Assembly (NCBI GenBank): GCA_019359045.1
Contig: JAHHIA010000019.1
Coordinates: forward strand, 1-64,000
Source: Scytolyngbya sp. HA4215-MV1
GTDB lineage: Bacteria; Cyanobacteriota; Cyanobacteriia; Leptolyngbyales; Leptolyngbyaceae
DNA: 64,000 nt
Direction: 5' to 3'
The notes under the pieces were generated by a model, which did not search any database, had not been told where the DNA came from, and saw nothing but the letters and a program-made list of their open reading frames with translations. Of the stretch, positions 48,565 to 62,827 are shown piece after piece (position 1 is the stretch's first letter; every line of letters begins with the position of its first letter). Position numbers and translations under genes: made by a program.

Positions 48565-51510
48565 CTACGAGAGCTTAGCGACAAAGTCTTGAAGGAGGTC
48601 GGAAGCTTTGATTTCAATTCGAGGTAATGCCAATCGTGCATCCCGAAAATGGCTCCGCTCTGGACGATGGGTGAGTCCAAAGGTATAGCCGCACGCTCCA
48701 ATCAAATGCTGCACCACTGGGTCATAATCCCCATCGGGATAGGCAAACGATCGCACAGAGGTTCCTAATTCGCGAGCCAGAATCGTCCGCGATCGTGCAG
48801 CTTCTTGCACCACCTCGGTTACGGATAATCCGGTCAGAGGGCGATGACTGAGGGAACGCGAACCAAATTCAATTCCACTTGCCTGAAGTTGCCGAATCTG
48901 TTGCCAGTTCATGTAGGTGCTTGTTTTACGCTCGTTTGGGCAATCGTTAGACTGCTCTATACGATCGATAGCTAGAAAAACCGTTGCCGAAAAACCGTAT
49001 TTTTCCAGCAAGGGAAAGGCTTCTGTATAAAAAGCCAGAGACTCATCATCAAAGGTAATTAAGATAGCTCGACCGGGTAAAGCTTGACGATTCGTCATTG
49101 CCTGGTGCCAGGTCTGCAAATTGACGCTATAGTAACCAGCCTCTTGCAAATAACGCAACTGTTCTGCCAATGTCTGAGGAGTCATTCGCCAGCCGTTGGC
49201 TTGTGACCTGTCAACCACAATTGGATGATATTTCAGAATTGCCAGTTGTTGCGTCACCATTAGATCGACTAAGTGCGACTTAAGGCGTTTTTGTTGACTC
49301 GGTAGTGGTACTTGCGCTGAAGAGGGTGGATGGGGTGATTCCGGATGCAGTTGCTCAAGTGTCGTCACTGCGTTCCTCCAGAACCGTCGAAGCCAAGAAC
49401 GCGCTGGCAGCGCTGCCTCTGCATCATACATCTGGTTGAATTTCGCTGATTCAACCTGGGGTTTAGCTTCAAATCGAGTGGGCTGATAGGGAGAAGCTGA
49501 CAAAATAACATCGGGTGCATAGAGAACCTGGCTGGGAATGCAGCCTTTGGTAGGCAATTGCAGTAGAGGTTCATGGGTTGCGATCGCCGATTCTAATAAT
49601 GCAGCAGCGGTCGCAGCAGGCAACCTTGCCCAACGAGAATCACTAGTTCCGATATCGCCCGATCGCCGACCCAACACTAACATTGACTTGCCCTGATCTG
49701 AGGCAGTGTCCCTTGCCGATCGCTGCCACATCGGAATATGGTTGGACTTCTGCTGAGCGGCTTCAGACAAGCGGTTTCGTAAGCTCGTAGGGTCTGACAG
49801 CGATCTCCCCAGCAACCCCTCCCGCACGACTGCACAACATAATTCTGCCCCGGCGCCCAGCAATAGCGCCACCCGCAACGCCTGAGCAGTCACCACTTCC
49901 TTTTCCACTGGGACGGTAATGAACCCTAAGGCGCTGCCTCCTACAGTCAACAATACAGTCAGTTCCGAGGCGCTAACAGACACATTGGGCAGTGCTTCAC
50001 TGATCTCAAGGGTGAGTTCATTGTGTTCAATCTGTTGTGTGAGTGTGGAGACCTCTCGAATAAGATGCGGATTGTAAAAATCTGCATTTGACCAGTCAGG
50101 GCAATTCCAAAGCTGTTGCAAAAAGATCAGCCAACCCTGTTCATCATGGAATGATTGAAAGTTGTCGGCAGTGGTGATTTTGGCGTAGAGAGTCTGTTCA
50201 AAAAACCGTCCCAAAATTTGCCAGGCAAAGTTCGCCGCGATCGCATCCGCCATTACTACAGCCGACAAAACCCCATCACATACAGGTAACTCCAGCGTTC
50301 CCAGCGGTGAGCCTGCCGCTTCAACCAGACAGTAAGCGCGCTCTACAGCAACGGGAGGATACAGATCGCGAAGTGGCTCTGTGACTTCTACTCGAATAGC
50401 ATAGGTTTTTCCTAGGGCCAGAGGCAAGGGCGCTTCTGCCTGTTGCAAAATCAACCGATCGAGAATCACACGCACGCGATCGGTGAGCAGCGGTGCTTGC
50501 GACTTCGTTTCCATCGCAAACAAAAAATCATTCACACAGGGTTCCACCTCTGACCACCGTTCCCATAAAATGCCAGGAGACTCGGTTGTAGGCACGGGCA
50601 GCGATTCTAAAAGGCAGAGGGCAATGGAGAGTGGATCAAGATCTGGAATCGGTTCCGCCTCCAGCAGATCGAGTAAATAGCGGGCATCTTTGCCCACACC
50701 CAGAACGGTACCCGCACACCAGGTGGCCAACAGCAATTTCAAGCCTGGAAGTCGTTCCGCTGGCATTCCATTGACATGAGCAGGATGAGGATTGGGTACA
50801 CGCGGATCAGGCGAATGCCCCTGGATTAGGGTTCGGAGTCCATAGGTAAAGCGTTTGGTGCTATCACTGGAATGAGAGTTGTGCCGCATGCGGTAAAAGG
50901 CAAGCACTTCAGGAACTGCAACAAATCGGGCACCGGTGCGCGCGATCCGTTGCCAGAGATCCCAATCTTGATTGTTATAGAAAAATGGATCAAAGCCACC
51001 TAAAGCAAGCACCAGGGCTTTCCGAACAATGCAAGCATTGATCGAAAACGGACAGTAGCGCGCTAGTTCAGCAAATAAATCGCTTGCCAAAGGAACCTGT
51101 TTTCTACCATAGCAAGTGCCATTAGCGGCGACTCGTACCGAGCTACAATGTACGACATCAAAATCTGGATGGGTTGCCAGTTGACCTAACATCTTTTCTA
51201 GATAAGTCGGTGCAATCCAATCATCAGCATCGAGAAAGAGGAGCCAATCAAATTTAGCCAGATGGATGCCTTCGTTGCGAGCGATACTGACACCCCGATG
51301 AGGCTGATTGATGAAGCGGATGCGTGCATCTTGTTGGACGAAGCGACTAACAATCGTTGCCGTTTCATCAGTAGAACCGTCATTGACTACGATCGCTTCC
51401 CAGTGAGGAAGCGTTTGAGCTTGGAGTGATTCAATCGTTTGGGTAATGGTTTCTGCTGAGTTATAAGCGGGTATAACCACAGATAAATTCATAGGTAATT
51501 CAGCGCTCAT
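48565..51510 (-). CDS. glycosyltransferase-deacetylase fusion with a degenerate deacetylase site
   Basis: The 981-residue protein starts with a GT2 domain (about 1-230: LSVVIPAYNSAETITQTIESLQAQ, DGSTDET, LDADDW). A long middle follows, then a CE4/NodB polysaccharide-deacetylase-like region from about 758. It is a paralogue of the 1162-residue fusion at 54318-57806 but lacks its central methyltransferase. The deacetylase motif TFDD is followed by Glu (TFDDE). The zinc motif reads GSRSLSH instead of GSHTATH, so the first of two zinc-binding histidines (near residue 882) is Arg. Deacetylase activity is therefore doubtful. A duplicated start sits just upstream. Confidence 0.88.
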   Translation of the reverse strand: MSAELPMNLSVVIPAYNSAETITQTIESLQAQTLPHWEAIVVNDGSTDETATIVSRFVQQDARIRFINQPHRGVSIARNEGIHLAKFDWLLFLDADDWIAPTYLEKMLGQLATHPDFDVVHCSSVRVAANGTCYGRKQVPLASDLFAELARYCPFSINACIVRKALVLALGGFDPFFYNNQDWDLWQRIARTGARFVAVPEVLAFYRMRHNSHSSDSTKRFTYGLRTLIQGHSPDPRVPNPHPAHVNGMPAERLPGLKLLLATWCAGTVLGVGKDARYLLDLLEAEPIPDLDPLSIALCLLESLPVPTTESPGILWERWSEVEPCVNDFLFAMETKSQAPLLTDRVRVILDRLILQQAEAPLPLALGKTYAIRVEVTEPLRDLYPPVAVERAYCLVEAAGSPLGTLELPVCDGVLSAVVMADAIAANFAWQILGRFFEQTLYAKITTADNFQSFHDEQGWLIFLQQLWNCPDWSNADFYNPHLIREVSTLTQQIEHNELTLEISEALPNVSVSASELTVLLTVGGSALGFITVPVEKEVVTAQALRVALLLGAGAELCCAVVREGLLGRSLSDPTSLRNRLSEAAQQKSNHIPMWQRSARDTASDQGKSMLVLGRRSGDIGTSDSRWARLPAATAAALLESAIATHEPLLQLPTKGCIPSQVLYAPDVILSASPYQPTRFEAKPQVESAKFNQMYDAEAALPARSWLRRFWRNAVTTLEQLHPESPHPPSSAQVPLPSQQKRLKSHLVDLMVTQQLAILKYHPIVVDRSQANGWRMTPQTLAEQLRYLQEAGYYSVNLQTWHQAMTNRQALPGRAILITFDDESLAFYTEAFPLLEKYGFSATVFLAIDRIEQSNDCPNERKTSTYMNWQQIRQLQASGIEFGSRSLSHRPLTGLSVTEVVQEAARSRTILARELGTSVRSFAYPDGDYDPVVQHLIGACGYTFGLTHRPERSHFRDARLALPRIEIKASDLLQDFVAKLS

Positions 51511-51531
51511 TTAAGGTAGTTCAGCACTCAT
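51511..51531 (-). promoter_or_regulatory. upstream mini-ORF that repeats the first six codons of the glycosyltransferase gene
   Basis: ATG AGT GCT GAA CTA CCT TAA encodes MSAELP and stops directly before the gene ATG, which begins MSAELPMNL. The two copies are an 18-base tandem repeat with three mismatches, one stop codon apart. Translation of the mini-ORF could reinitiate at the gene start. Confidence 0.7.
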
Positions 51532-51545
51532 AAATTCGATGCTAT

Positions 51546-51571
51546 GAGGTTGGTCACGGTTGACCAACCTC
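51546..51571. repeat. 11-bp perfect inverted repeat upstream of the fusion gene
   Basis: GAGGTTGGTCA (51546-51556) and TGACCAACCTC (51561-51571) pair around 4 bases, 15 bases upstream of the mini-ORF start. Neither strand has a T run after it, so it looks more like an operator or RNA hairpin than a terminator. Confidence 0.7.
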
Positions 51572-52005
51572 ACTCAGAACCAACGATCATGTGCTCTTTT
51601 GTTAATAGTATGGAACGTAGTAAAATATCTTAACAAATGCTGGTCTGAGTTGAGATTTATTGAATATGAAAAGGCAAATTCAGCTTTGGATTCAGTAATA
51701 TTCAGCATTCTGGCAGAAGTATTTCGAGAGTAACTGAAAAGAATAATTCCTTTTTAGTTAAAAATACTATCTTTATGGCATCTTTACGCTTGAGGCTTTT
51801 ATCTTCTGGTTTTGGCGGTTGCTTTTAGGGTAGAACGCATAAGTTTGATTCAATAAATTGAATGCCTGAAGTTTCCTTGTCCAGAAGATTTTCAGGAGAA
51901 CGGGCTAGTTTTGTGATTCACGATCGACTTTAAAGAAGCCTTTGAGGAGGTAAAGCTCTGCACCCTTACATCGCAATCGTTTTTGAGGAGCCGAAGCATT
52001 CTGGG

Positions 52006-54321
52006 TCAGCGAATTCGGTAAAGAATAAACCGATCGTCTTCATACTCCACAACATATCGGTTTGTGATGGTAGAGGGTTGGACGATCGCCAATTCCTTTA
52101 GGGCACCGCTATTAAGTTCTTTCTTATCAATCAAAATGTGGGAAATCCTCAATTTCCCTAAGGTTTGGAATGCTTTTTGTTCCTGTCCGATGGACGCACC
52201 CCAAATGGCTGGATGGGCAATCGTGGCATCGCTCCAAATTCGTTCTCGATCGGCATAAAAATGGTCGCCACTGCTAAAGCTGAGAACGCGGGCATTGGTC
52301 GGTAAATGGGTATTAATATAACGCCATGCCCGATAAGAGGGCACCGCATGCTGCAAATAATCGGTTTGAGATTGCCGTCCAACTACGACCGCGAAAGGGA
52401 TTTGGTGCATGGCATGGTTGAGCCACCCCTCCCATTGCACGCGATCGCCTTCATGAAACTGGATGAACGGCGGTAAATTCAGTGGCAGCAAAACTGCTAA
52501 ACCAGCGAAAAGAAACGATTTACCTCGATGTGTCAAAGAACGCAGGATAGAGGCTAAAGGAGTCGCGGCTTCAGCCGCCAAAACTGCAAGTAAAGGAGTA
52601 ATGGGAATCAGAAAGCGCATCTGAAAGCTACTGAAGGGAGATGCCCATAGCGCCAAAAACAGCCCGACAAAAGCCAATAACCAGATTGTGGCTGGAGTAA
52701 AGCGTCGTCGGATCAGTAATGCAGGGAGCAACAACAGAAATAAGGGACCTAATGCTCCATCATAGTGAGCTGCGTGAACGGTCATATCCCAGGGAAGTGT
52801 CAGCAAGTTAGGGAGGGTACGAGGACGACCAAAATGTCCCAAAAATTTGCCTAATCCACTTTCAGTCAAGCTATTCCAGCGATCGGGGGGTGCACCAAAG
52901 ATCTCAAATAGTTCTGGAAAAACGGGATTGCCCGAAGCAAGCCAACTGCGAAGATACCAGGGCAAGGGGAAAAGCAAGCTGAATCCACAGAACACTAAAA
53001 CGGGGAAAAGCAGAGGTCGCCAACTCCGTTCCTGCAACCAGAGTTTGAGTACCAGACCGATCGCCGTTAATGCCAGAACAAACAGGGCTAAATGTTTGGT
53101 TGCCAGTGCGAGCCCCAGATTCAAAGCTGCCAGCAATAACCACTGCCAGCAGCGGTTTTCGTAGCGCAGCAGAGCATAAATCACTAACCCCACATGCAAT
53201 GCCAGTGCCAGGTCAATGTAGGCAGTAGTCGACTCCCAGAGCACAATGGGAATGGTGACAAATAACGCTACGGCGAGCCAGGGGGAAGCGCGCGGCATAA
53301 AACGGCTAGCCAATTGATAAACCAGTAAGCCAGTGAGGGGTAAACAGGCAAAATGCAGCAGTTTTGCGCCAATTTGTCCCCCCACTGCTAACCCTGCCCC
53401 AAAGATCAGTTCCCAAGTCATGGGATAGAGCGAGATGAAATCGGCAGGCAGATCCACCAGAAAACCTTGCTGTAACCAGAGTTTTGGCAGTCCCAAATGA
53501 TACCAGAGGGCATCATATTCTTGTTCTGGCGCCAGTGCGCCGATCAGGGCAATGGCAGTTGCCAGTAGGACGATCGCCTGCCAGAGACGATCGCCCGATC
53601 GGCGACGAATGGGTGCAATCACTGGCTTAACGAAGTCGGGCTGCTGCCGACCGTTTCTTGTCCAATGCCAACCCCAACTGCACGCTCCCCCCAACACAAT
53701 GATTGCAATCAGGATTTGCACACTGCTGATGTAGTAGAGCCGCAAGCCAGCTAAGCCTGCCGAGAGATAGGCAATACAGCCCAGCCCCGTTGAGATCTGG
53801 TAAAGCAATGCCTCCCGTCTGCCATCAAATTGCCAGCGCAGCCAGTGAAACAACCCCATCCCCAAAAACTGTGCCGCTAGCAATACCCACCCTGCTCCCA
53901 AGATACCCTGTACTGCGCGTAGGGTGGCTTCTTGAAAAGCAGGCAAAAAGTATGCAACAGGACTGATTGTGAATAGATAGCCCAGCAAAACGACTGAACT
54001 GGAGAAGATGCCAAAGCCCAGCAAAATCTGCGATCGCTGCCATTGTTCCCGTCTTGCTGGCGATCGTTGAAGTAGCCAAATGGTTGCCCCCAAAAACAAT
54101 CCCATGCTTGCGGCAGCAAATCCAGCATCTAAAAAGACATTCACGACAGACACCCCATCAGGGTTAGGGACTTTACCCGTTGCGGTATACCCAAATTGTC
54201 GGTAGTAAACCGTCAACAATCCGATCGCCCACACCAGCCAGAGCAGTGCCCAGCCCCGTTGTTGCCAGATACGATTTCCCCCAATTTTTGGGTCTAAGAA
54301 TAACTGCACAAAATTCTTCAT
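52006..54321 (-). CDS. GT-C type membrane glycosyltransferase (family 39-like)
   Basis: The 771-residue protein is mostly hydrophobic helices from residue 20 to about 630, then a soluble C-terminal domain. The segment LAPEQEYDALWYHLGLPKLWLQQG, with an acidic motif, followed by the loop region up to GGQIGAKLLHFACLPL, fits GT-C-fold enzymes (family 39/PMT-like) that take sugars from lipid-phosphate donors. It overlaps the preceding trimodular gene by 4 bases (ATGA), so the two are probably translated together. Donor and acceptor are unknown. Confidence 0.8.
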   Translation of the reverse strand: MKNFVQLFLDPKIGGNRIWQQRGWALLWLVWAIGLLTVYYRQFGYTATGKVPNPDGVSVVNVFLDAGFAAASMGLFLGATIWLLQRSPARREQWQRSQILLGFGIFSSSVVLLGYLFTISPVAYFLPAFQEATLRAVQGILGAGWVLLAAQFLGMGLFHWLRWQFDGRREALLYQISTGLGCIAYLSAGLAGLRLYYISSVQILIAIIVLGGACSWGWHWTRNGRQQPDFVKPVIAPIRRRSGDRLWQAIVLLATAIALIGALAPEQEYDALWYHLGLPKLWLQQGFLVDLPADFISLYPMTWELIFGAGLAVGGQIGAKLLHFACLPLTGLLVYQLASRFMPRASPWLAVALFVTIPIVLWESTTAYIDLALALHVGLVIYALLRYENRCWQWLLLAALNLGLALATKHLALFVLALTAIGLVLKLWLQERSWRPLLFPVLVFCGFSLLFPLPWYLRSWLASGNPVFPELFEIFGAPPDRWNSLTESGLGKFLGHFGRPRTLPNLLTLPWDMTVHAAHYDGALGPLFLLLLPALLIRRRFTPATIWLLAFVGLFLALWASPFSSFQMRFLIPITPLLAVLAAEAATPLASILRSLTHRGKSFLFAGLAVLLPLNLPPFIQFHEGDRVQWEGWLNHAMHQIPFAVVVGRQSQTDYLQHAVPSYRAWRYINTHLPTNARVLSFSSGDHFYADRERIWSDATIAHPAIWGASIGQEQKAFQTLGKLRISHILIDKKELNSGALKELAIVQPSTITNRYVVEYEDDRFILYRIR

Positions 54322-57300
54322 GAACCCAGTTTCGCGACAAACGCCTTGAGGCTATCAGAACCTTCGATCTCGATCCGGGGCAGCGAGAGTAACGCATCCC
54401 GAAAACCACTCCGACCAGAACGACAAGACAATCCTACGGTATAGCCGCAAGCGCCGATTAGATGTTGCACAACTGCGTTGTGATCCCCGTAGGGATAGGC
54501 GATCGTCCGAATGGGAACTCCCAATTCTCGCTCTAAAATGGCTCGCGATCGGGTTGCTTCTTTGACAATCTCCACAGGCGATAAAGCCGTTAACAGAGGA
54601 TGAGTCGCAGTATGAGAACCGAATTCGATCCCTTCTGTTTGGAGTTGTCGAATGGTGTGCCAGTTCATCAGAGGAATTTCTTCCTGATACGCTTGATCCC
54701 ATACATTCGCCCCCCCCACTTGGTTGGCAACCAGAAAAACTGTGGCAGAGAACCCGTATTGTTTTAACAAGGGTGCAGCATAGTCAAGAAAGTCTTGATA
54801 TCCATCATCAAAGGTGAGAGCGATCGCCCGACCAGGAAGAGGACGACGATTCACCATTGCTTCGCGCCATTGCTCCCAAAGCACACTGTAATACCCAGCA
54901 TCCCGCAAATATTGCAACTGTTGCTCAAAAGCTTGAGGGGTGACCCGGTAACGACTTAAGCGGTCAGTGCCAGCAGGCGCGACCCGATGGTACATCAGAA
55001 TGGGTAGACGATCGGTGACAACGGGCACTTCTTCATAGTCTCTGGGGGTCCCCCCCTGCCACAACACATGCGCTTCAACATCGGGCGGCAAAGGGGTGGG
55101 TTGTTGAGCCAGGCGGATCAACTTTGGGATCGATCGCTGCCAGGGCAACTGCACAGGAGGGCGGCGTTGAAAAAGTTGGATGCGATAGAGCGGTGTCCAA
55201 ATTTCTTTTGCGAGGCTGAGGTCAGGAACCTCGCAAAATACATCACTAATCCCTTTGGCGCCAAAGGGTACATTGTTCCAGCCAAACCCCGATTGATCAG
55301 GCTCATCCACGACTGCGTGAGCATGTGCCATGAGCAAATAGCCGCCTGGTTCCAATGCCTGAGTTATTTTGTGAGCAACTTCTACCAACTGATCTTTGCC
55401 GCCGACATAATAAAGCACCTCACTGCACACGATCAGGTTAAAGCGTCCTGGGATGGTATCCTTCACTAGGTCTAGGCGTTGGAAATCCAGATGCTGAAAT
55501 TGCTGGCAACGATCGGCTGTGCGATCGAGGGCAATCTGCGAAATGTCCGTCACCGTGAGATGTTTCACTTTGGCAGCCAGTTGCACAGTAAAGTGTCCCT
55601 CGGCACAGGCAAGCTCCAAGGCTTTGTTGACCTTTCCATGCGGTAAGAGCGAAAGCGTTTGCTCGTACTTGGTTTGCTCATAGGGACTGGTATATTTCCA
55701 AGGATCAGGCTGGGTCGCAAACAAAGTCTCAAATTCGCTGCGATCGTTCCGTCTCGCTGAAGCCATTGGGGTCTGATCGGCAGGAATGAGCGGATACCGT
55801 TGATAGGGATGCTGAATCAGGTCTGGTGCATAAATCACCCACTTGAGAGCTTGACCGGGTGCTGGAGTTTGAATAATTGGTTCGTGAGCTGCGATCGCAG
55901 CCTGCAACATATCGGGCGCAGCCGCAGCAGGCAACATTGCCTGACGAGAATCACTCGTCCCAATGGCACCATACCGCCGACCGAATACCAGGGCATTTTT
56001 GAGCAGTTCTGGATTGTAGGAACAAGCCAATTGCATCGTCTCAGTTTGGTATGAACGTTTCTGCTGTGCGGATGCAGCCAACCGTTCCCGCAAAGGTGTT
56101 GGATCGGTCAGGCTTCTCCCTAACAGCCCCTCTCGCACCACCGCACAACATAACTCAAAATGGCTTTCTAGCAATACGGCGACGCGCACAGCCTGGGCAG
56201 TCACAAAGTTATTCTTCACGGGCACTGTAATGCATCCCAGTGCGGCTCCCGCAACGGTGGGTAATACGGTGAGTTCTAAAGCATTGACTTCAATATCCGG
56301 AAATTCTTCACTGATTTCGATCGTTAGCCAATCTTGCTCTAAGGGTTGCCGGGTTGCTGTAGGGTCGATCTCTGTCGCATCATAGAATTGCTCGTCGGAC
56401 CAGTCTGGACGATTCCAGAGTTGTTGTAACAATACTCGCCAGCCAATCTCGTCATGCAGCAACTGGATTTCCTCATGAGTTGCTGGAGGATAGATCGTAT
56501 GTTCAAAGAACCGACCCAAAATCTTCCAGGCAAAGGTCGCTGCGATCGTATCTGCCAACACAACACTTGCCACCACACCATTGCAGATTGGCAATTCTAT
56601 CGTTCCTAGCGGCTCGCCTGCCACAGTCACCCAACCGTACAGCGATTCTGCCTGCTCAGGGGAATACACATCCACGAGCGGCTGGGTGATGTCTACCTGA
56701 ATTGCATGGATCGTTGCCAATGTCATTGGCTGGGTCAGATGTGTCTCCTGTAGCACTAATCGGGCTAAGAGAACCAAAGTTCGATGTGCAAAGCCAGAGG
56801 CTGGTAATTTCTCTTCCAATGCTTGAAGAAACTTGAGAATCGGCGCTTCCAGTAATTGCCAGCGGTCTATCCAAACCGAGGGCGCTTGGCAGGCTGGAAT
56901 TAAAATCGATTCAAATAGATTGTCGGCAACCCAGGCAGGTTCTAGCTCCAATGTAGGAACTGTGGAGCTTAAATCAAGCAGATGATGGGCATCTTTGCCT
57001 TGCCCCAAAAACAATCCTGCGATCCAGGTGGTCATCAACATCTGTGCTTTTGCCAACGCTTCGATGGGTTGCCCCTTCGTATACGCTGGCTTGGCAAGGG
57101 GCACCCGTGGATCAGTCGCATGACCTTGGGCAATCACCCGCATAGCATCTGTCAAGTATTGATTAGCATTTCGGGAGAGGGAGTCGGGGCGCATCCGGTA
57201 GAAGGCTAAGACTTCTGGCACCAACCCGAACTTTGCTCCCATCCGAGCAATTCGTTGCCAGAGATCCCAATCTTCACAGGTTTTGAGTGTACGATCGAAG

Positions 57301-57806
57301 CCTCCCACATGCTCTACCAAACTTTTTCGCACAAGACAGGTATGAATTGCAAAGGTGCAACAACGGGTCAAGACGGGGAAGAGATCGGACTCTGACTTAC
57401 CGTACCGGGCATTGCTCACTTGCCCATCGGGGGTTACGTTGCTCCAGCCACAATGCACAGCATCCCAATCTGGGTGGATAGAAAGTTGGGTAAACAGAGT
57501 CTCCAGATGCGTCGGTGCCAGCCAATCGTCCGCATCGAGAAAGAGTAACCAATCAAACCGGGCGCGTTGAATGCCAGCATTCCGAGCAACGCAAACCCCA
57601 ACCTGTGACTGATTGAGGATAATGATGCGACGATCTTGACGGGCAAACCGAGCAGCGACCTCTGCGGTGTCATCACTCGAACCATTATTGATCACGATCG
57701 CTTCCCAATCGGGAAAGGTTTGAGCGTAAACAGAGGTCAGGGTATCTGATAGGGTTGCCGCTGCATTATGGGCTGGAATGATGATAGAAACGCCTGGATG
57801 CTGCAT
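54318..57806 (-). CDS. trimodular glycosyltransferase-methyltransferase-polysaccharide deacetylase
   Basis: The 1162-residue protein combines three enzymes. A GT2 domain (about 1-230) has VSIIIPAHNAAATLSDTLTSVYAQ and LDADDWL. A linker domain of about 450 residues follows. The NodS-like SAM methyltransferase (about 690-860) contains LELACAEGHFTVQLAA and SEVLYYVGG. A CE4 deacetylase (about 935-1162) has MYHRVAP, the catalytic TFDDG, zinc histidines in SHTATH and AYPYGDHN. Deacetylase residues are intact. Such fusions may assemble, methylate and deacetylate one sugar chain. It is followed in the same direction, overlapping 4 bases, by the GT-C gene. Confidence 0.93.
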   Translation of the reverse strand: MQHPGVSIIIPAHNAAATLSDTLTSVYAQTFPDWEAIVINNGSSDDTAEVAARFARQDRRIIILNQSQVGVCVARNAGIQRARFDWLLFLDADDWLAPTHLETLFTQLSIHPDWDAVHCGWSNVTPDGQVSNARYGKSESDLFPVLTRCCTFAIHTCLVRKSLVEHVGGFDRTLKTCEDWDLWQRIARMGAKFGLVPEVLAFYRMRPDSLSRNANQYLTDAMRVIAQGHATDPRVPLAKPAYTKGQPIEALAKAQMLMTTWIAGLFLGQGKDAHHLLDLSSTVPTLELEPAWVADNLFESILIPACQAPSVWIDRWQLLEAPILKFLQALEEKLPASGFAHRTLVLLARLVLQETHLTQPMTLATIHAIQVDITQPLVDVYSPEQAESLYGWVTVAGEPLGTIELPICNGVVASVVLADTIAATFAWKILGRFFEHTIYPPATHEEIQLLHDEIGWRVLLQQLWNRPDWSDEQFYDATEIDPTATRQPLEQDWLTIEISEEFPDIEVNALELTVLPTVAGAALGCITVPVKNNFVTAQAVRVAVLLESHFELCCAVVREGLLGRSLTDPTPLRERLAASAQQKRSYQTETMQLACSYNPELLKNALVFGRRYGAIGTSDSRQAMLPAAAAPDMLQAAIAAHEPIIQTPAPGQALKWVIYAPDLIQHPYQRYPLIPADQTPMASARRNDRSEFETLFATQPDPWKYTSPYEQTKYEQTLSLLPHGKVNKALELACAEGHFTVQLAAKVKHLTVTDISQIALDRTADRCQQFQHLDFQRLDLVKDTIPGRFNLIVCSEVLYYVGGKDQLVEVAHKITQALEPGGYLLMAHAHAVVDEPDQSGFGWNNVPFGAKGISDVFCEVPDLSLAKEIWTPLYRIQLFQRRPPVQLPWQRSIPKLIRLAQQPTPLPPDVEAHVLWQGGTPRDYEEVPVVTDRLPILMYHRVAPAGTDRLSRYRVTPQAFEQQLQYLRDAGYYSVLWEQWREAMVNRRPLPGRAIALTFDDGYQDFLDYAAPLLKQYGFSATVFLVANQVGGANVWDQAYQEEIPLMNWHTIRQLQTEGIEFGSHTATHPLLTALSPVEIVKEATRSRAILERELGVPIRTIAYPYGDHNAVVQHLIGACGYTVGLSCRSGRSGFRDALLSLPRIEIEGSDSLKAFVAKLGS

Positions 57807-58225: not shown

Positions 58226-59479
58226 CTAATAGTGTTTACTTATAAGATCAGAAGTCACTTTGCTAACTTCCCAGCGATGGGGCGGACAAAGGCTCCCTTG
58301 AGTCTGAATTGAAGATTTCACAGCAAATGGGTAGGTATGCCAGTGATAGTCGTAAGCATATTTCCAATCCTGTTCATAAACTCCCACATCTGCAAAGTAA
58401 TCGCCCGTATTCAGATCTAATCGATCGATTTGTAAACTGATCTGTCCATGCCCCTGAATGCTAGATAGGGGGATACTCATGGTTGCAGTTGTGGTATCAA
58501 GACAGACCAATCCATCTTTGTGACTGATGCTGACTCCAAAAATGGGAGCGGCGATCGGCCGTTCTGCCAAATACTCGATATCAATGCGGAGTGCTCCTCC
58601 GCTTTTGATCTCCGTTGCCGGAGTCAGGCGTACATCCAGAATCTCAACTTCAAGCGACCCAAACCGATTGTCATTCACCCGCAACTCAACCCCCGATCGA
58701 GTCATTTGGGGAGGACGCACAGGTGTTCGTTTTCGGGTTTCTGAGCGCATTTCAGCCACATACTGTCCAGCCACTACCTCCGGCTCACCATAGGCAAAAA
58801 TTTGTCCAGCTTTGAGCCACATTGCCCGATCACACAGTTGTTCAATCTGCTCTGCACTATGGGAGATCAAGATAATGGCACATCCCTCTTTCTTCAACCG
58901 AGTAATTCGCTCCAAACACTTTGCCTGAAAGGCAATATCGCCGACTGACAAAAACTCATCCACCAGCAACACTTGCGGATCGGTATGAATTGCTGTTGAA
59001 AAAGCCAGCCGCATTTGCATCCCACTGCTGTAGGTGCGGAGTGGATTATCTATAAACGATTCCAGTTCAGCAAAGGCAAGAATTTCATCAAACCGACGGG
59101 CAACTTCCCGCCGAGTCAATCCTGCTACCACGCCACTCACGAATACATTTTCTCGCCCGGTTAAATCCGAGTGAAATCCGGCTCCCAGATCCAGCAAGGC
59201 ACCAATCTGCCCATTCACCTTGACTTTGCCCTCATCGGCTCGTCCAACCCCTCCCACCAGTTGCAATAGGGTCGATTTGCCTGCACCATTCTGCCCCAAA
59301 ATGCCTAACATTTCTCCGGGAAACACCGTGAAGCTGACATCTCGCAATGCCCAAAATTCTTCGACTGGGGTCATGCGGCGTAATCCCGCCACCACTGCTT
59401 CCTGGAAGGTTAGGGGACGATCGCCATGAAACCGACGAAACCGCTTACCCAACCCCTCAACCTTGACGGCATAACGCAT
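58226..59479 (-). CDS. polysaccharide ABC exporter ATP-binding protein (Wzt-like)
   Basis: The 417-residue protein has a Walker A GQNGAGKSTLLQLVGG (about 61-76), the family signature YSSGMQMRLAFSTAI, Walker B VLLVDEFLSVGD and an H-loop in LISHSAEQIEQL. This signature is typical of ABC-2 exporters of surface polysaccharides. The extra C-terminal domain (about 260-417), beta-rich, corresponds to the Wzt carbohydrate-binding part that recognises the chain end. The start ATG immediately follows the stop of the permease (TAAATG), so the pair is coupled. Confidence 0.92.
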   Translation of the reverse strand: MRYAVKVEGLGKRFRRFHGDRPLTFQEAVVAGLRRMTPVEEFWALRDVSFTVFPGEMLGILGQNGAGKSTLLQLVGGVGRADEGKVKVNGQIGALLDLGAGFHSDLTGRENVFVSGVVAGLTRREVARRFDEILAFAELESFIDNPLRTYSSGMQMRLAFSTAIHTDPQVLLVDEFLSVGDIAFQAKCLERITRLKKEGCAIILISHSAEQIEQLCDRAMWLKAGQIFAYGEPEVVAGQYVAEMRSETRKRTPVRPPQMTRSGVELRVNDNRFGSLEVEILDVRLTPATEIKSGGALRIDIEYLAERPIAAPIFGVSISHKDGLVCLDTTTATMSIPLSSIQGHGQISLQIDRLDLNTGDYFADVGVYEQDWKYAYDYHWHTYPFAVKSSIQTQGSLCPPHRWEVSKVTSDLISKHY

Positions 59480-60271
59480 TTACAATTCCTCCACAAAGCG
59501 ATTGCTCTGTCGCTTAAAAATCCGATGCCCGATCGGCAAAATTGCCAAAGAAACAAGACTGAGAATTCCTAAAACTGACCAGTTCGGGGGCATCCCATGA
59601 ATCATAATTTGACGATAGGATTCCACCAAAATCACCATCGGATTCAAGTAATAGACGGATTGTAAGCGATCGGGCACATGGCTAATATCGTAGAAAAGGG
59701 GGGTGAGATAAAACAGCAGTTGCAGTAACACGCCTAGAATGTGCTGGGTGTCTCGAAAACTCACGTTAACGGCTGCTAGCGGGTAGGTGAGACTCACCGT
59801 CAGCACAAACTGAAGCAGCAACAGGACGGGTAAATACATGAGTGCAGGCGTAATTGCAATGCCATCGATCGCGATAAAGATGATTAAAATCGGCAATGCT
59901 AGACAAAAGTGAATCAACCCCGTCATCACCGTCACCACCGGCAAAATAGAAACCGGGAACCCAGGTTGCCGAATTAAAGGACGATTGTTCGTAATCACCC
60001 CCGTTGCCTGAAAAAGAGATGACTGAAACCAGTTCCAGACTAGTAATCCGCTGAATACGAAAGACGAATATCGGGGAATATTAACGGGTAAGACTATCTG
60101 AAAAATAAAAGCAAACACCGCTAGTTGGAGCAGAGGATTGATTAACGTCCAAGCAATTCCCATCATGGAGCGCTTATAGAGAATTTTCATGTCACGGCTG
60201 ACCAGTTCGTGCAAAAGGTCAATCTGCTGGGACAGACGACCTTTTGCGAACCAACCGCTCAAGCTTTTCAT
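59480..60271 (-). CDS. ABC-2 polysaccharide exporter permease (Wzm-like)
   Basis: The 263-residue permease has six hydrophobic segments and the ABC-2 landmark RDMKILYKRSMMGIAWTLINPLLQLAVFAFIF near the N-terminus. It also has PLFYDISHVPDRLQSVYYLNPMVILVESYRQIMIHG, typical of Wzm/TagG-type exporters. It is followed directly by the ATPase. It overlaps the preceding glycosyltransferase by 4 bases (ATGA), so the order glycosyltransferases-Wzm-Wzt forms one transcription unit. Its substrate is probably the glycan made by the neighbouring enzymes. Confidence 0.92.
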   Translation of the reverse strand: MKSLSGWFAKGRLSQQIDLLHELVSRDMKILYKRSMMGIAWTLINPLLQLAVFAFIFQIVLPVNIPRYSSFVFSGLLVWNWFQSSLFQATGVITNNRPLIRQPGFPVSILPVVTVMTGLIHFCLALPILIIFIAIDGIAITPALMYLPVLLLLQFVLTVSLTYPLAAVNVSFRDTQHILGVLLQLLFYLTPLFYDISHVPDRLQSVYYLNPMVILVESYRQIMIHGMPPNWSVLGILSLVSLAILPIGHRIFKRQSNRFVEEL

Positions 60272-61542
60272 GATGTTGCCTCCTGGGTTGAAGCAGAATC
60301 TGCTTCAGACAGGTGCAGTTCCAAGCTCTCCACTTTGCGAGCTTGGAAGTGTCCTGTAACGTAAACAAAAGGACTCATAAGCATTCCCAACAGCTCAAAT
60401 AAAATCAACGAACGGGGCACTTTACCGGGTCGGCGAAGGCGACGGACAATTTGCTCAATCAACCAGAAGCGAACAAAAAAGCGTCCCAAGGAGAGCCAAC
60501 CGACTCGTCCACTGATAGCACAGGTTAGTAAAAAAGCCCCCAATCCACAATTTTTGTGATACAGGGTTTGCCATAAGGTAGACATCGGTGGTTGAGTCGT
60601 ATGCCAAACCACCATTGCCGGTTCATAAGCCAGAGTATGACCTTGGGTCACCAGACGATGCAACAGTTCAACTTCGCTACCATAGTGGCTGGAAATGTCC
60701 ATGCCCAAGGCATGACTAAACCCACCGATTTTCGAGAAAACACTGCGACGGAACGCCACATTGGTTTCTACCACCTGTTTGTGGATATGGAGCAAATCTT
60801 TTTCTGGAACGGGTTGCCAGTGAGCCAATCGATCGATGGCTAAAAAGTCTTTACGAATCTTTTGTCGATGCATTTTTTGCACCATGCCACCATAAAAAAA
60901 TTCATAGAGATATTGAGCATCTGTAACAAGTTGTCCGGGAGCAGACAGCCCCGTGACTGCCATCACCTCTGGGTCAGCGAATGCCTGCGCAATCGCCCGT
61001 AACCAGAGGCGATCGGCAACCATATCATCATCAATAAAAGCGACGATGTCGTAGCGAGCTTCTGCAATACCGCGATTGCGCGCACAGCCCAAACCAGGGT
61101 TTTCTTCGTAAATGTAACGGATAGACCACTGATTTTTCCATTGAGCCGCCTTTTCGGTTGGAGAAGTGTTGTCTACAACAATCACTTCAAAATTGGGATA
61201 ATCAATTTGTAAGAGCGATGCTAAACAACGTTGCAATTGAGCACTGGGATAACGCACACAGACGATCACACTAATCGGTGGAGCAGGCTGATCTGCTGGC
61301 TCAAGATGCCCCAACATTTCATATTCGAGTGTTGCCCGCGCAATTTCCCAACCCAGTTGTTCGTTAATTGACTGTTGTAATTGCTCTGCGGAAAGACCTG
61401 CCGAATGATTGTGAGACAAATAAACCCAACCTAACGGTTGATGATGATGACGCACTAAAATCTGGAGATCGTTGTACGCTTCCAATTCCCAGATTGAGGG
61501 AATGGGCTGTGTAATTTCTAAATCCAGGACTTTAGTTGACAT
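60268..61542 (-). CDS. family 2 glycosyltransferase
   Basis: The 424-residue protein has a preceding N-terminal domain (about 1-75) and a GT2 core: ISVIVCVRYPSAQL, EVIVVDNTSPT, GCARNRGIAEA and AFIDDDMVAD (DDD at about 187-189). The C-terminus holds hydrophobic helices (LSLGRFFVRFWLIEQIVRRL and ILFELLGMLMSPFVYVTG) for membrane attachment. The frame is open to 61611, but ATG 61542 has GGAGG 6 bases ahead and is chosen, leaving an 11-base overlap with the preceding gene. It overlaps the permease start by 4 bases. Confidence 0.9.
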   Translation of the reverse strand: MSTKVLDLEITQPIPSIWELEAYNDLQILVRHHHQPLGWVYLSHNHSAGLSAEQLQQSINEQLGWEIARATLEYEMLGHLEPADQPAPPISVIVCVRYPSAQLQRCLASLLQIDYPNFEVIVVDNTSPTEKAAQWKNQWSIRYIYEENPGLGCARNRGIAEARYDIVAFIDDDMVADRLWLRAIAQAFADPEVMAVTGLSAPGQLVTDAQYLYEFFYGGMVQKMHRQKIRKDFLAIDRLAHWQPVPEKDLLHIHKQVVETNVAFRRSVFSKIGGFSHALGMDISSHYGSEVELLHRLVTQGHTLAYEPAMVVWHTTQPPMSTLWQTLYHKNCGLGAFLLTCAISGRVGWLSLGRFFVRFWLIEQIVRRLRRPGKVPRSLILFELLGMLMSPFVYVTGHFQARKVESLELHLSEADSASTQEATS

Positions 61543-62827
61543 GAATAACCTCCAGTGGTTGAGGATGGCAATTGGCAGATTGCAAAGGAGTGCTGACTTG
61601 AGACCAGCCACGCTCCAACATCATCCTTGACAAACAAGATTTCGCCAAACCTTTGGTCAGTTCAGCGCGCAAGTGGATGCCCCGTAACCGCTCGACCCCT
61701 ATTTTAGGCGGAATCCGACCGACAATTTGCGAACCATAGCGTAACCGAATCGCCGTAGGTCTTGCCTGATCAACTTGTTGCTCAGCTTGGTCAAACCCGT
61801 CTGCCAGATCGATTTCTATCTCTAAACTGGGCAGATTGGACAAACTGCTCGTATCAGCCTGCAAAAAACTTTGTAATGCTTGTTGTAGGCTAGATGCTTT
61901 GGCAATCCCCCGCAGATACCAATAGCCCAGCAGACGATCGAGAAGCGATCGCCAATAATGACGCAACCGTAACCCCTCCAAAACATCGAGAATTTGACGG
62001 GCACAACCTGCTAGAAAATCGCCGAGAATTGGCAGTTTGAAAATCAAAAGAATAATCATCCGATCGAGCAGCGAGCACTGCGCCAATAATCGGCAGACTA
62101 GCAGTGTGGATTTTAGTTCGGGGTGTTTTTGTCCAAGTTGTACATCGGCAATCCCTTCCTGGAACTTGCGGTTGAGCGATCGATTGATATCGGTCAATTC
62201 GTGATGGTAGCCCATGGCATCGGGCGCAAAACCAAAATCGGCTCCTGCCTTCAACAATCGCAAACCAAGTTCGTAATCTTCGTGGCAGCGAAAGTTGGCA
62301 TCAAATCCATCGATCGCATTAAATAGCTGGGTGGGGACAGAAAAGTTACCACTTAGCAGATCCGTATAGGCGAAGCGGTGATCGACCTCTCGCATTTGTT
62401 GAAACATCGCTTCCCACCAACCACGCAAAGTGATGCGAAAAAAACCGGTCTGGGTTGCCAAAATCGTGGGCAGATAACCGATGACTACGCGATTGGGGTG
62501 ATCTTCATGCGCCCGTACATGAGCTGCCACAAATTGAGTCGTCACTTCAATATCGTCATCGACAAAAATCAGCAACGGAGCCGTGGCTTTGGCAGCCCCT
62601 TGATTTCTGGCGACGGCAGGTCCTTGACCCGGTTGATCAATCACCTGCAAGGCAAACGGTGCTTGGTAGCGATGCAGCATTTCGACGGTGTCATCACTAC
62701 AGCCATCCGCGACGATAACGACCTCCATTTGCTCGATCGGATAGGTTTGTTGACTCAGCGCAGTTAGAGTTCGAGCGAGGGCAGCACTGCGGTTATGCGT
62801 GGGAATAATAATACTGACAGTAGGCAT
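61532..62827 (-). CDS. family 2 glycosyltransferase
   Basis: The 431-residue protein has a GT2 core at its N-terminus: VSIIIPTHNRSAALARTLTALSQQ, VIVADGCSDDTVEML, AVARNQGAAKA and IFVDDDIEV (DDD). A further ED-containing segment CHEDYELGLRLLKAGADFGF fits the catalytic base region. The C-terminal third is helical and partly hydrophobic (LLDRMIILLIFKLPILGDFLAG). A TTG-initiated frame adds four residues upstream, but ATG 62827 begins MPTVSIIIPTHN and is preferred. It lies 8 bases after the preceding gene stop. Confidence 0.9.
   Translation of the reverse strand: MPTVSIIIPTHNRSAALARTLTALSQQTYPIEQMEVVIVADGCSDDTVEMLHRYQAPFALQVIDQPGQGPAVARNQGAAKATAPLLIFVDDDIEVTTQFVAAHVRAHEDHPNRVVIGYLPTILATQTGFFRITLRGWWEAMFQQMREVDHRFAYTDLLSGNFSVPTQLFNAIDGFDANFRCHEDYELGLRLLKAGADFGFAPDAMGYHHELTDINRSLNRKFQEGIADVQLGQKHPELKSTLLVCRLLAQCSLLDRMIILLIFKLPILGDFLAGCARQILDVLEGLRLRHYWRSLLDRLLGYWYLRGIAKASSLQQALQSFLQADTSSLSNLPSLEIEIDLADGFDQAEQQVDQARPTAIRLRYGSQIVGRIPPKIGVERLRGIHLRAELTKGLAKSCLSRMMLERGWSQVSTPLQSANCHPQPLEVIHVN

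Follow-up and report, generated by a model that had tools for sequence, protein, structure and literature searches.

A methyltransferase-less paralogue with a CE4-like, probably non-catalytic tail beside a trifunctional glycan enzyme in Scytolyngbya sp. HA4215-MV1

The window analysed here, a 64,000-nucleotide stretch of contig JAHHIA010000019.1 of the cyanobacterium Scytolyngbya sp. HA4215-MV1, encodes two large paralogous glycan enzymes on its minus strand, on which all window features given below also lie. P0002 (54318-57806; delineated by open reading frame, Pfam and motif reading) is a trifunctional protein of 1162 residues, with a GT2 glycosyltransferase, a NodS-like methyltransferase (MT) and a CE4 deacetylase whose motifs are intact. 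P0001 (48565-51510; open reading frame, pairwise alignment and Pfam) is a 981-residue paralogue that combines GT2 and middle modules with a CE4-like tail and has no MT. The tail of P0001 lacks the first zinc histidine of the deacetylase site and is probably non-catalytic.

The domains of the two proteins can be placed side by side. In P0002, the GT2 domain (residues 1-215, 57162-57806) is followed by the middle modules (residues 356-675, 55782-56741), a NodS-like S-adenosylmethionine-dependent MT domain (residues 691-895, 55122-55736) and a CE4 domain (residues 931-1162, 54321-55016), in which His940, Asp1000, Asp1001, His1065 and His1069 are intact. P0001 begins with a GT2 domain (residues 9-215, 50866-51486) that keeps 64 of 70 conserved GT2 columns (66 of 70 in P0002) and continues through the middle modules MIDa and MIDb and the GTS motif (residues 363-676, 49483-50424). 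A linker stands at the MT position (residues 677-752, 49255-49482), and a CE4-like domain of the NodB2 type, identified by Pfam and fold match, occupies residues 753-980 (48571-49254). The two proteins are 49% identical overall in pairwise alignment and have the Pfam families GT2 (PF00535) and Polysacc_deac_1 (PF01522) in common. The NodS family (PF05401) matches P0002 only, at residues 700-830 with a score of 73.7 against a cut-off of 24; the same domain scores 88.7 bits against the NCBIfam NodS model NF041650, far under its cut-off of 300, so we call it NodS-like only. Pfam and our profiles thus bear out an earlier note on this DNA, which had read the 1162-residue protein as GT2, NodS-like MT and CE4 in one chain. 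No MT match was found in P0001 by Pfam or domain profiles, so P0001 is not trifunctional.

The same note had described the shorter protein as keeping matching ends. The ends do match and the MT is absent, but the likeness runs through the whole middle as well: residues about 213-675 of P0002 are matched throughout by P0001, and the MID part is 54% identical. The common middle of about 450 residues consists of a helical part, the two related modules MIDa and MIDb, and the GTS motif, and has no Pfam match. AlphaFold predicted it with a mean predicted local distance difference test score (pLDDT) of 85. The middle-region profile retrieved nothing from the PDB sequences up to E 10, Foldseek matched the model to nothing at E 0.001 or below, and VIA-align 2 returned no Z of 8 or more, the best being 7.0 for a designed helical repeat; the middle was modelled as one 478-residue piece with several parts, and these structural negatives are no proof of a new fold. 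The linker at the MT position of P0001 holds no clear MT remnant by eye, in keeping with the unrelated linker reported before; one stretch faintly resembles the start of the MT domain and was rejected, also by eye, as too weak. Our search of open-licence PubMed Central found no paper on a fusion of a polysaccharide deacetylase, a glycosyltransferase and a NodS-type MT.

The metal site of P0001 differs from that of P0002 at defined positions. In CE4 enzymes, as described in PMC4505593, the first Asp of motif 1 acts as base, the second Asp and two His bind the metal, and the motif-5 His acts as acid; PMC10967932, which treats NodB2 proteins with the motif order found here, assigns the metal to the first Asp instead. 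Both Asp residues are kept in P0001, and its case is therefore independent of which of them binds metal. The Asp-His-His triad is complete in P0002 (Asp1001, His1065, His1069) and incomplete in P0001 (Asp822, Arg885, His889), where Arg885 (codon CGT, 48856-48858) replaces the first zinc His and the second, His889 (48844-48846), is retained. The alignment confirms the motif changes proposed earlier, TFDDG to TFDDE and GSHTATH to GSRSLSH, and shows no His aligned in place of the lost one, the finding that the earlier note had named as able to overturn its reading. Glu823, next to the retained Asp822 (49042-49047 for the pair), stands in a column that is Gly in 19 of the 21 trifunctional proteins introduced below, and Asp926 stands for the Tyr of AYPYG (giving AYPDG). 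Asp821 (catalytic base), Asp822 (metal), His889, the motif-5 His762 and Arg964 are kept. A single-base error behind the His to Arg change is unlikely, the whole P0001 CE4 domain having diverged.

The fold appears to have been kept. PF01522 is found in both proteins, and the AlphaFold model of the P0001 CE4 domain (mean pLDDT 86, 45 aligned sequences) superposes on the deacetylase PplD with Z 29.0 over 219 residues at 2.1 Å. With the NodB fold goes a loss of site residues of the kind seen in CE4 pseudoenzymes, and judged by its motifs the domain is best classed as CE4-like rather than as an active CE4. One residue deserves separate mention: His948 (48667-48669), a candidate substitute ligand, sits two residues past a strand of the P0001 model. 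Its column, residue 1128 of P0002 (54423-54425), lies near a strand end and is Cys in 19 of the 21 trifunctional CE4 domains.

The relatives of the two proteins were collected with a middle-region profile, which was needed because a search with P0001 alone gave none. The profile identified 49 related loci in the genome collection; the scan behind them began from two short peptide patterns only. Twenty loci have the order GT2-MID-MT-CE4 and come from Cyanobacteriota, Bacteroidota, Planctomycetota, Chloroflexota, Verrucomicrobiota, Acidobacteriota, Gemmatimonadota and Ignavibacteriota. A further 26 carry a sulfotransferase head, and three GT2-headed loci have no MT: L087 (Scalindua) is GT2-MID-CE4, L060 has GT2-MID and, after it, CE4 in a frame of its own, and L065 is split over several frames, again with a separate CE4 frame. 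All 21 MT-bearing proteins (the 20 loci and P0002) retain both Asp, the pair of zinc His and the motif-5 His, and the CE4 site of L087, L060 and L065 is likewise intact; the alignment of CE4 rows has none for L060, L065 and L101, whose matched open reading frames hold no CE4. We thus find no MT next to a broken CE4 among the relatives and CE4 without MT in several, with few independent events on either side. An MT that never stands beside a broken CE4 is expected if methylation needs the freed amine. The CE4 frame of L065 (11106-12017) starts with a stretch that by eye resembles the post-MT linker of trifunctional proteins, as if the MT had been lost there recently.

Several lines of evidence bear on the origin of P0001. 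In the middle-region tree (53 of 58 rows, unrooted, 10 of 45 inner branches open; the truncated or split L065, L084, L089, L100 and L101 excluded), P0001 and P0002 are sisters with support 99/89, which upholds the duplication suggested earlier. Loss of the MT from P0001, likewise suggested, agrees with the presence of an MT in 20 of the 23 loci that lack a sulfotransferase head, across eight phyla. The synonymous divergence (dS) between the paralogues is saturated, and the reading frame of P0001 is open to its end. Departures from the consensus of trifunctional relatives were counted against 14 of the 20 trifunctional loci, excluding the near-copies L055, L083, L088, L092 and L094 and the truncated L077: P0001 and P0002 depart in 23 and 17 GT2 columns, 14 and 19 MID columns, and 49 and 11 CE4 columns, respectively. 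Only the CE4 part of P0001 has diverged unusually; GT2 and MID have not. Of the conserved CE4 columns (defined on 15 of the 20 trifunctional loci, five near-copies excluded, with residue counts from all 21 proteins), P0001 keeps 60/74 outside the motifs and 17/24 within them, compared with 73/74 and 24/24 in P0002, and four sulfotransferase-headed rows keep 56-64/74 and 16-18/24.

A second protein of the P0001 type (GT2 head, no MT, broken CE4) was sought widely. None was found in the other 41 genomes of the order among up to 20 scored candidates per genome, in the 386-genome phylum samples among 2 or, in a second scan, 6 scored candidates per genome, in the 49 loci, or in plasmids by tblastn. 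Across the order's 42 genomes, the window's own genome alone gave a whole-length match among the matches listed. The plasmid search yielded two further trifunctional proteins, and the best plasmid match of P0001 is the Gloeothece trifunctional protein at 44% identity. In the genome G032, of the window's family, L010 (814-3372) has a GT2 with MID-like modules on both sides, as judged by eye, and no CE4. In Nodosilinea, the trifunctional gene is followed downstream by another GT2-MID copy (L068, 12609-14469), made up of two overlapping frames without MT or CE4; this copy was rejected as a P0001 orthologue, its best matches being the Nostoc proteins L054 and L055, with P0001 third in both parts. 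A Mesorhizobium plasmid with separate glycosyltransferase, deacetylase, methyltransferase and ATP-binding cassette (ABC) genes was rejected as a set of split parts; its methyltransferase misses the MT profile, and its CE4 match is weak and in two pieces.

The clearest parallel to the P0001 tail is found in Microcoleus-type cyanobacteria, where the same middle is flanked by a sulfotransferase head and a CE4-like tail that lacks the metal site. The sulfotransferase-headed loci are L047-L053 and 26 between L059 and L102, and all readable tails are metal-less. Gly stands for the second motif-1 Asp in 31 of 31 readable rows, and the first His has given way to Met or Leu in 29 of 29. At the second His, 18 of 29 rows have Tyr and 11 keep His, and 30 of 32 carry another residue at the motif-5 His; these 32 rows include five pairs with identical middles and are not independent events. 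In the column of Cys1128, three of the four rows inspected have Tyr (L061, L062, L075) and L053 has Cys. The sulfotransferase-headed rows form one clade (99/96) in the middle-region tree. With P0001 and P0002 sisters elsewhere in that tree, the two losses of the CE4 site are separate, and the residues lost differ between them; CE4 tails without the metal site have thus arisen at least twice. The median ratio of nonsynonymous to synonymous substitution rates (dN/dS) within the clade is 0.22 for the CE4-like tail, as low as the 0.23 of the sulfotransferase and below the 0.34 of MID, from 221 of 253 pairs among 23 rows; pairs with dS outside 0.1-1.2 were dropped, the truncated L084, L089, L100 and L101 and also L047-L052 were excluded, and the pairs share ancestry and are not independent. 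The metal-less tail of this clade is under purifying selection and not free to drift.

The surroundings of the two genes point to a glycan pathway. Between the paralogues lies a 771-residue PMT-type membrane glycosyltransferase (52006-54321, PF02366), whose gene shares four bases with the end of P0002. Upstream of P0002 are a Wzt-type ABC ATPase with a Wzt_C domain (58226-59479), a Wzm-type ABC-2 permease (59480-60271), both identified by Pfam, and a GT2 protein (60268-61611; Pfam and MID profile) whose N-terminal part weakly matches the MID module. The MID module weakly matches the stretch preceding GT2 in other proteins of these gene clusters too, where there is no Pfam family.

The link to Wzt was followed across the loci. 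A Wzt with Wzt_C is in view at 7 of the 23 loci that lack a sulfotransferase head, lying within 231 bases of the gene in L055, L057 and L068, and at 24 of the 26 that have one; the remaining two have 140 bases or fewer of upstream sequence. All 24 Wzt proteins beside sulfotransferase-headed genes have 641-701 residues, the shortest frame (641) starting at its locus edge, and their C-terminal stretch matches a second sulfotransferase domain, confirmed by Pfam (PF00685) in both of the fused proteins checked (L061 and L075). The Wzt of the seven loci without the head has no sulfotransferase match. The fused Wzt genes lie 57 to 574 bases upstream of the sulfotransferase-MID-CE4-like gene, as at L061:5863-7932, and occur also at L059, L062-L064, L066, L067, L070, L072-L076, L078-L080, L082, L084-L086, L091 and L100-L102. 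In the ABC systems described in PMC11231755, the C-terminal module of Wzt recognises the modified chain end before export, and by analogy our guess is that the chain end may be modified at these loci as well. A separate 216-residue reading frame with a sulfotransferase domain adjoining Wzt is recorded in PMC4483657, and sulfotransferases are named among glycan genes in a 2015 review (PMC4390846). In open-licence PubMed Central we found no paper combining a sulfotransferase domain, an ABC ATPase and a polysaccharide deacetylase in Microcoleus.

Collectively, we favour the reading that P0001 is a duplicate of a trifunctional enzyme and now a glycosyltransferase with a probably non-catalytic CE4 tail that may be structural or glycan-contacting, and give it a rough probability of just under 0.6. 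A trifunctional GT2-MT-CE4 enzyme would have been duplicated, one copy keeping the sugar transferase and the middle modules, losing the MT, as the tree suggests, and losing the first metal ligand of the deacetylase, as read in the alignment. From the gene order, P0001 may serve as a glycosyltransferase for a glycan whose pathway includes the Wzm/Wzt ABC exporter. P0002, by analogy with NodB followed by NodS, would add a sugar, de-N-acetylate it and methylate the freed amine. The tail of P0001 would probably persist as a folded module, and the purifying selection on the metal-less tails of the sulfotransferase-headed relatives supports this non-catalytic, structural reading.

A number of observations weigh against it. 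Proteins of the P0001 type were found in this genome only, and with no orthologue to compare, selection does not distinguish a use of the tail from its decay. Motif and non-motif columns of P0001 are lost at rates too close to demonstrate a preference for the fold above the site, and the CE4-specific divergence fits decay as well as a new use. Loss of the MT does not force loss of the CE4 site, as L060, L065 and L087 show, and the idea that one always brings the other is contradicted by these loci. With Wzt in view at fewer than a third of the loci without a sulfotransferase head (seven of 23), the exporter link is not general. P0001 retains four of the five key residues, and its His948 may lie near the pocket. 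Furthermore, BA0330 and BA0331 keep Asp-His-His and show no activity according to PMC4505593; given that pair, motif reading would not settle activity either way.

The alternative that survives best, which we regard as possible with some doubt, is that the CE4 part of P0001 has been in decay since the duplication and does nothing, GT2 and the middle alone mattering. The excess of changes is confined to this domain (49 against 11), and the search for a second case of this type, through the order, the phylum samples, the 49 loci and the plasmids with 2 to 20 scored candidates per genome, was empty; the comparable loss of motif and non-motif columns raised our confidence in decay and lowered that in the favoured reading. 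It is opposed by a frame that is open to its end, a confidently predicted fold and the constraint on the parallel metal-less tails. We consider it unlikely that the domain is an altered working deacetylase in which Asp822 and His889 hold the metal together with a new ligand (for instance His948 or Glu823), and in which the metal or the substrate may be a different one. The retained Asp821, Asp822, His889, His762 and Arg964 agree with such an enzyme, as does a His two residues past a model strand in a column that is mostly Cys, but His1065 has no aligned replacement, the Gly to Glu change beside the metal Asp and the Tyr to Asp change in AYPYG alter the motifs, and the whole domain has diverged. 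His948 as a possible metal ligand is the strongest remaining doubt about a non-catalytic P0001 tail. That a bifunctional form was ancestral and P0002 gained its MT is very unlikely: the MT-less L060, L065, L087 and sulfotransferase-headed clade would suit it, yet 20 of 23 loci without that head have the MT in the same place over eight phyla, and P0001 and P0002 are nested among MT-bearing proteins, an argument from parsimony given an unrooted tree with 10 of 45 inner branches open.

Returning to a duplicate with a non-catalytic tail, a wider scheme can be drawn, which we offer speculatively and hold to be doubtful. MID and CE4 would form an export-linked platform for the chain end on which one chemistry replaces another and the CE4 fold remains a chain-end reader. 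The trifunctional enzymes would yield a de-N-acetylated, N-methylated terminal sugar; in the Microcoleus type, the MT would have been lost, the CE4 switched off, a sulfotransferase put in place of the GT2 head and a second one placed on Wzt, giving a sulfated end made by the exporting complex; P0001 would be a separate conversion of CE4 to a non-catalytic module. Within one family there is a natural series that starts with an intact deacetylase and includes two forms damaged independently of each other, of which one is maintained by selection, and such a series lets the role of a metal-free CE4 fold be tested. The Wzt-sulfotransferase fusion beside the sulfotransferase-headed gene suggests that sulfation and ABC glycan export are physically linked in cyanobacteria, whose exopolysaccharides commonly bear sulfate groups and whose biosynthesis and export have seen few experimental studies, according to the 2015 review (PMC4390846). 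The constrained metal-less tails of this clade and its Wzt fusion are more interesting than P0001, itself a modest variant.

Comparison with known systems places both proteins. P0002 is a member of an already annotated kind and not new in kind: the NCBI product name 'trifunctional glycosyltransferase/class I SAM-dependent methyltransferase/polysaccharide deacetylase' (SAM, S-adenosylmethionine) is carried by WP_013334356.1 of Gloeothece verrucosa and WP_243254667.1 of Sulfitobacter indolifex. The Gloeothece protein agrees with P0002 in its domains and their order, with CE4 motifs intact in both, whereas P0001 differs from it in lacking the MT and the first zinc His; the Sulfitobacter protein matches MID weakly and the GTS motif not at all. 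Streptococcus pyogenes PplD (6dq3), PgaB (3vus, 4f9d) and IcaB (4wcj) have the same fold and motif order as P0001, in which motif 5 comes before TFDD, the two-His motif and AYPxG, in that order. P0001 departs from these CE4/NodB2 deacetylases in its Arg at the first zinc His, its Glu at the motif-1 Gly and its fusion behind GT2.

CE4 proteins described as inactive, namely BA3943 (7bkf, by its title), BA0150 (4m1b) and the Encephalitozoon cuniculi protein 2VYO (PMC10967932, PMC4505593, PMC6115787), pair the CE4 fold with lost or silent activity; BA0330 and BA0331 (PMC4505593), in which no activity was detected with the site kept, are a precedent in the family for a role that needs no catalysis. 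Unlike P0001 and the sulfotransferase-headed clade, none is described in the relevant parts of these sources as fused to GT2 or a sulfotransferase. In Rhizobium sp. IRBG74, N-methylation by NodS takes place only after deacetylation by NodB (PMC5080398), and the MT of P0002 matches NodS, but P0002 carries both parts in one polypeptide; by fold, the CE4 domain of P0001 comes nearest to the PplD and PgaB types. The terminators WbdD, WbbB and Klebsiella pneumoniae O7 ORF6, as presented in PMC11231755, are large multidomain enzymes beside Wzm/Wzt with a Wzt C-terminal module, like P0002. Pfam finds no kinase or Kdo-transferase family here, and wzm and a wzt with a Wzt C-terminal domain are present by Pfam in the window, upstream of P0002.

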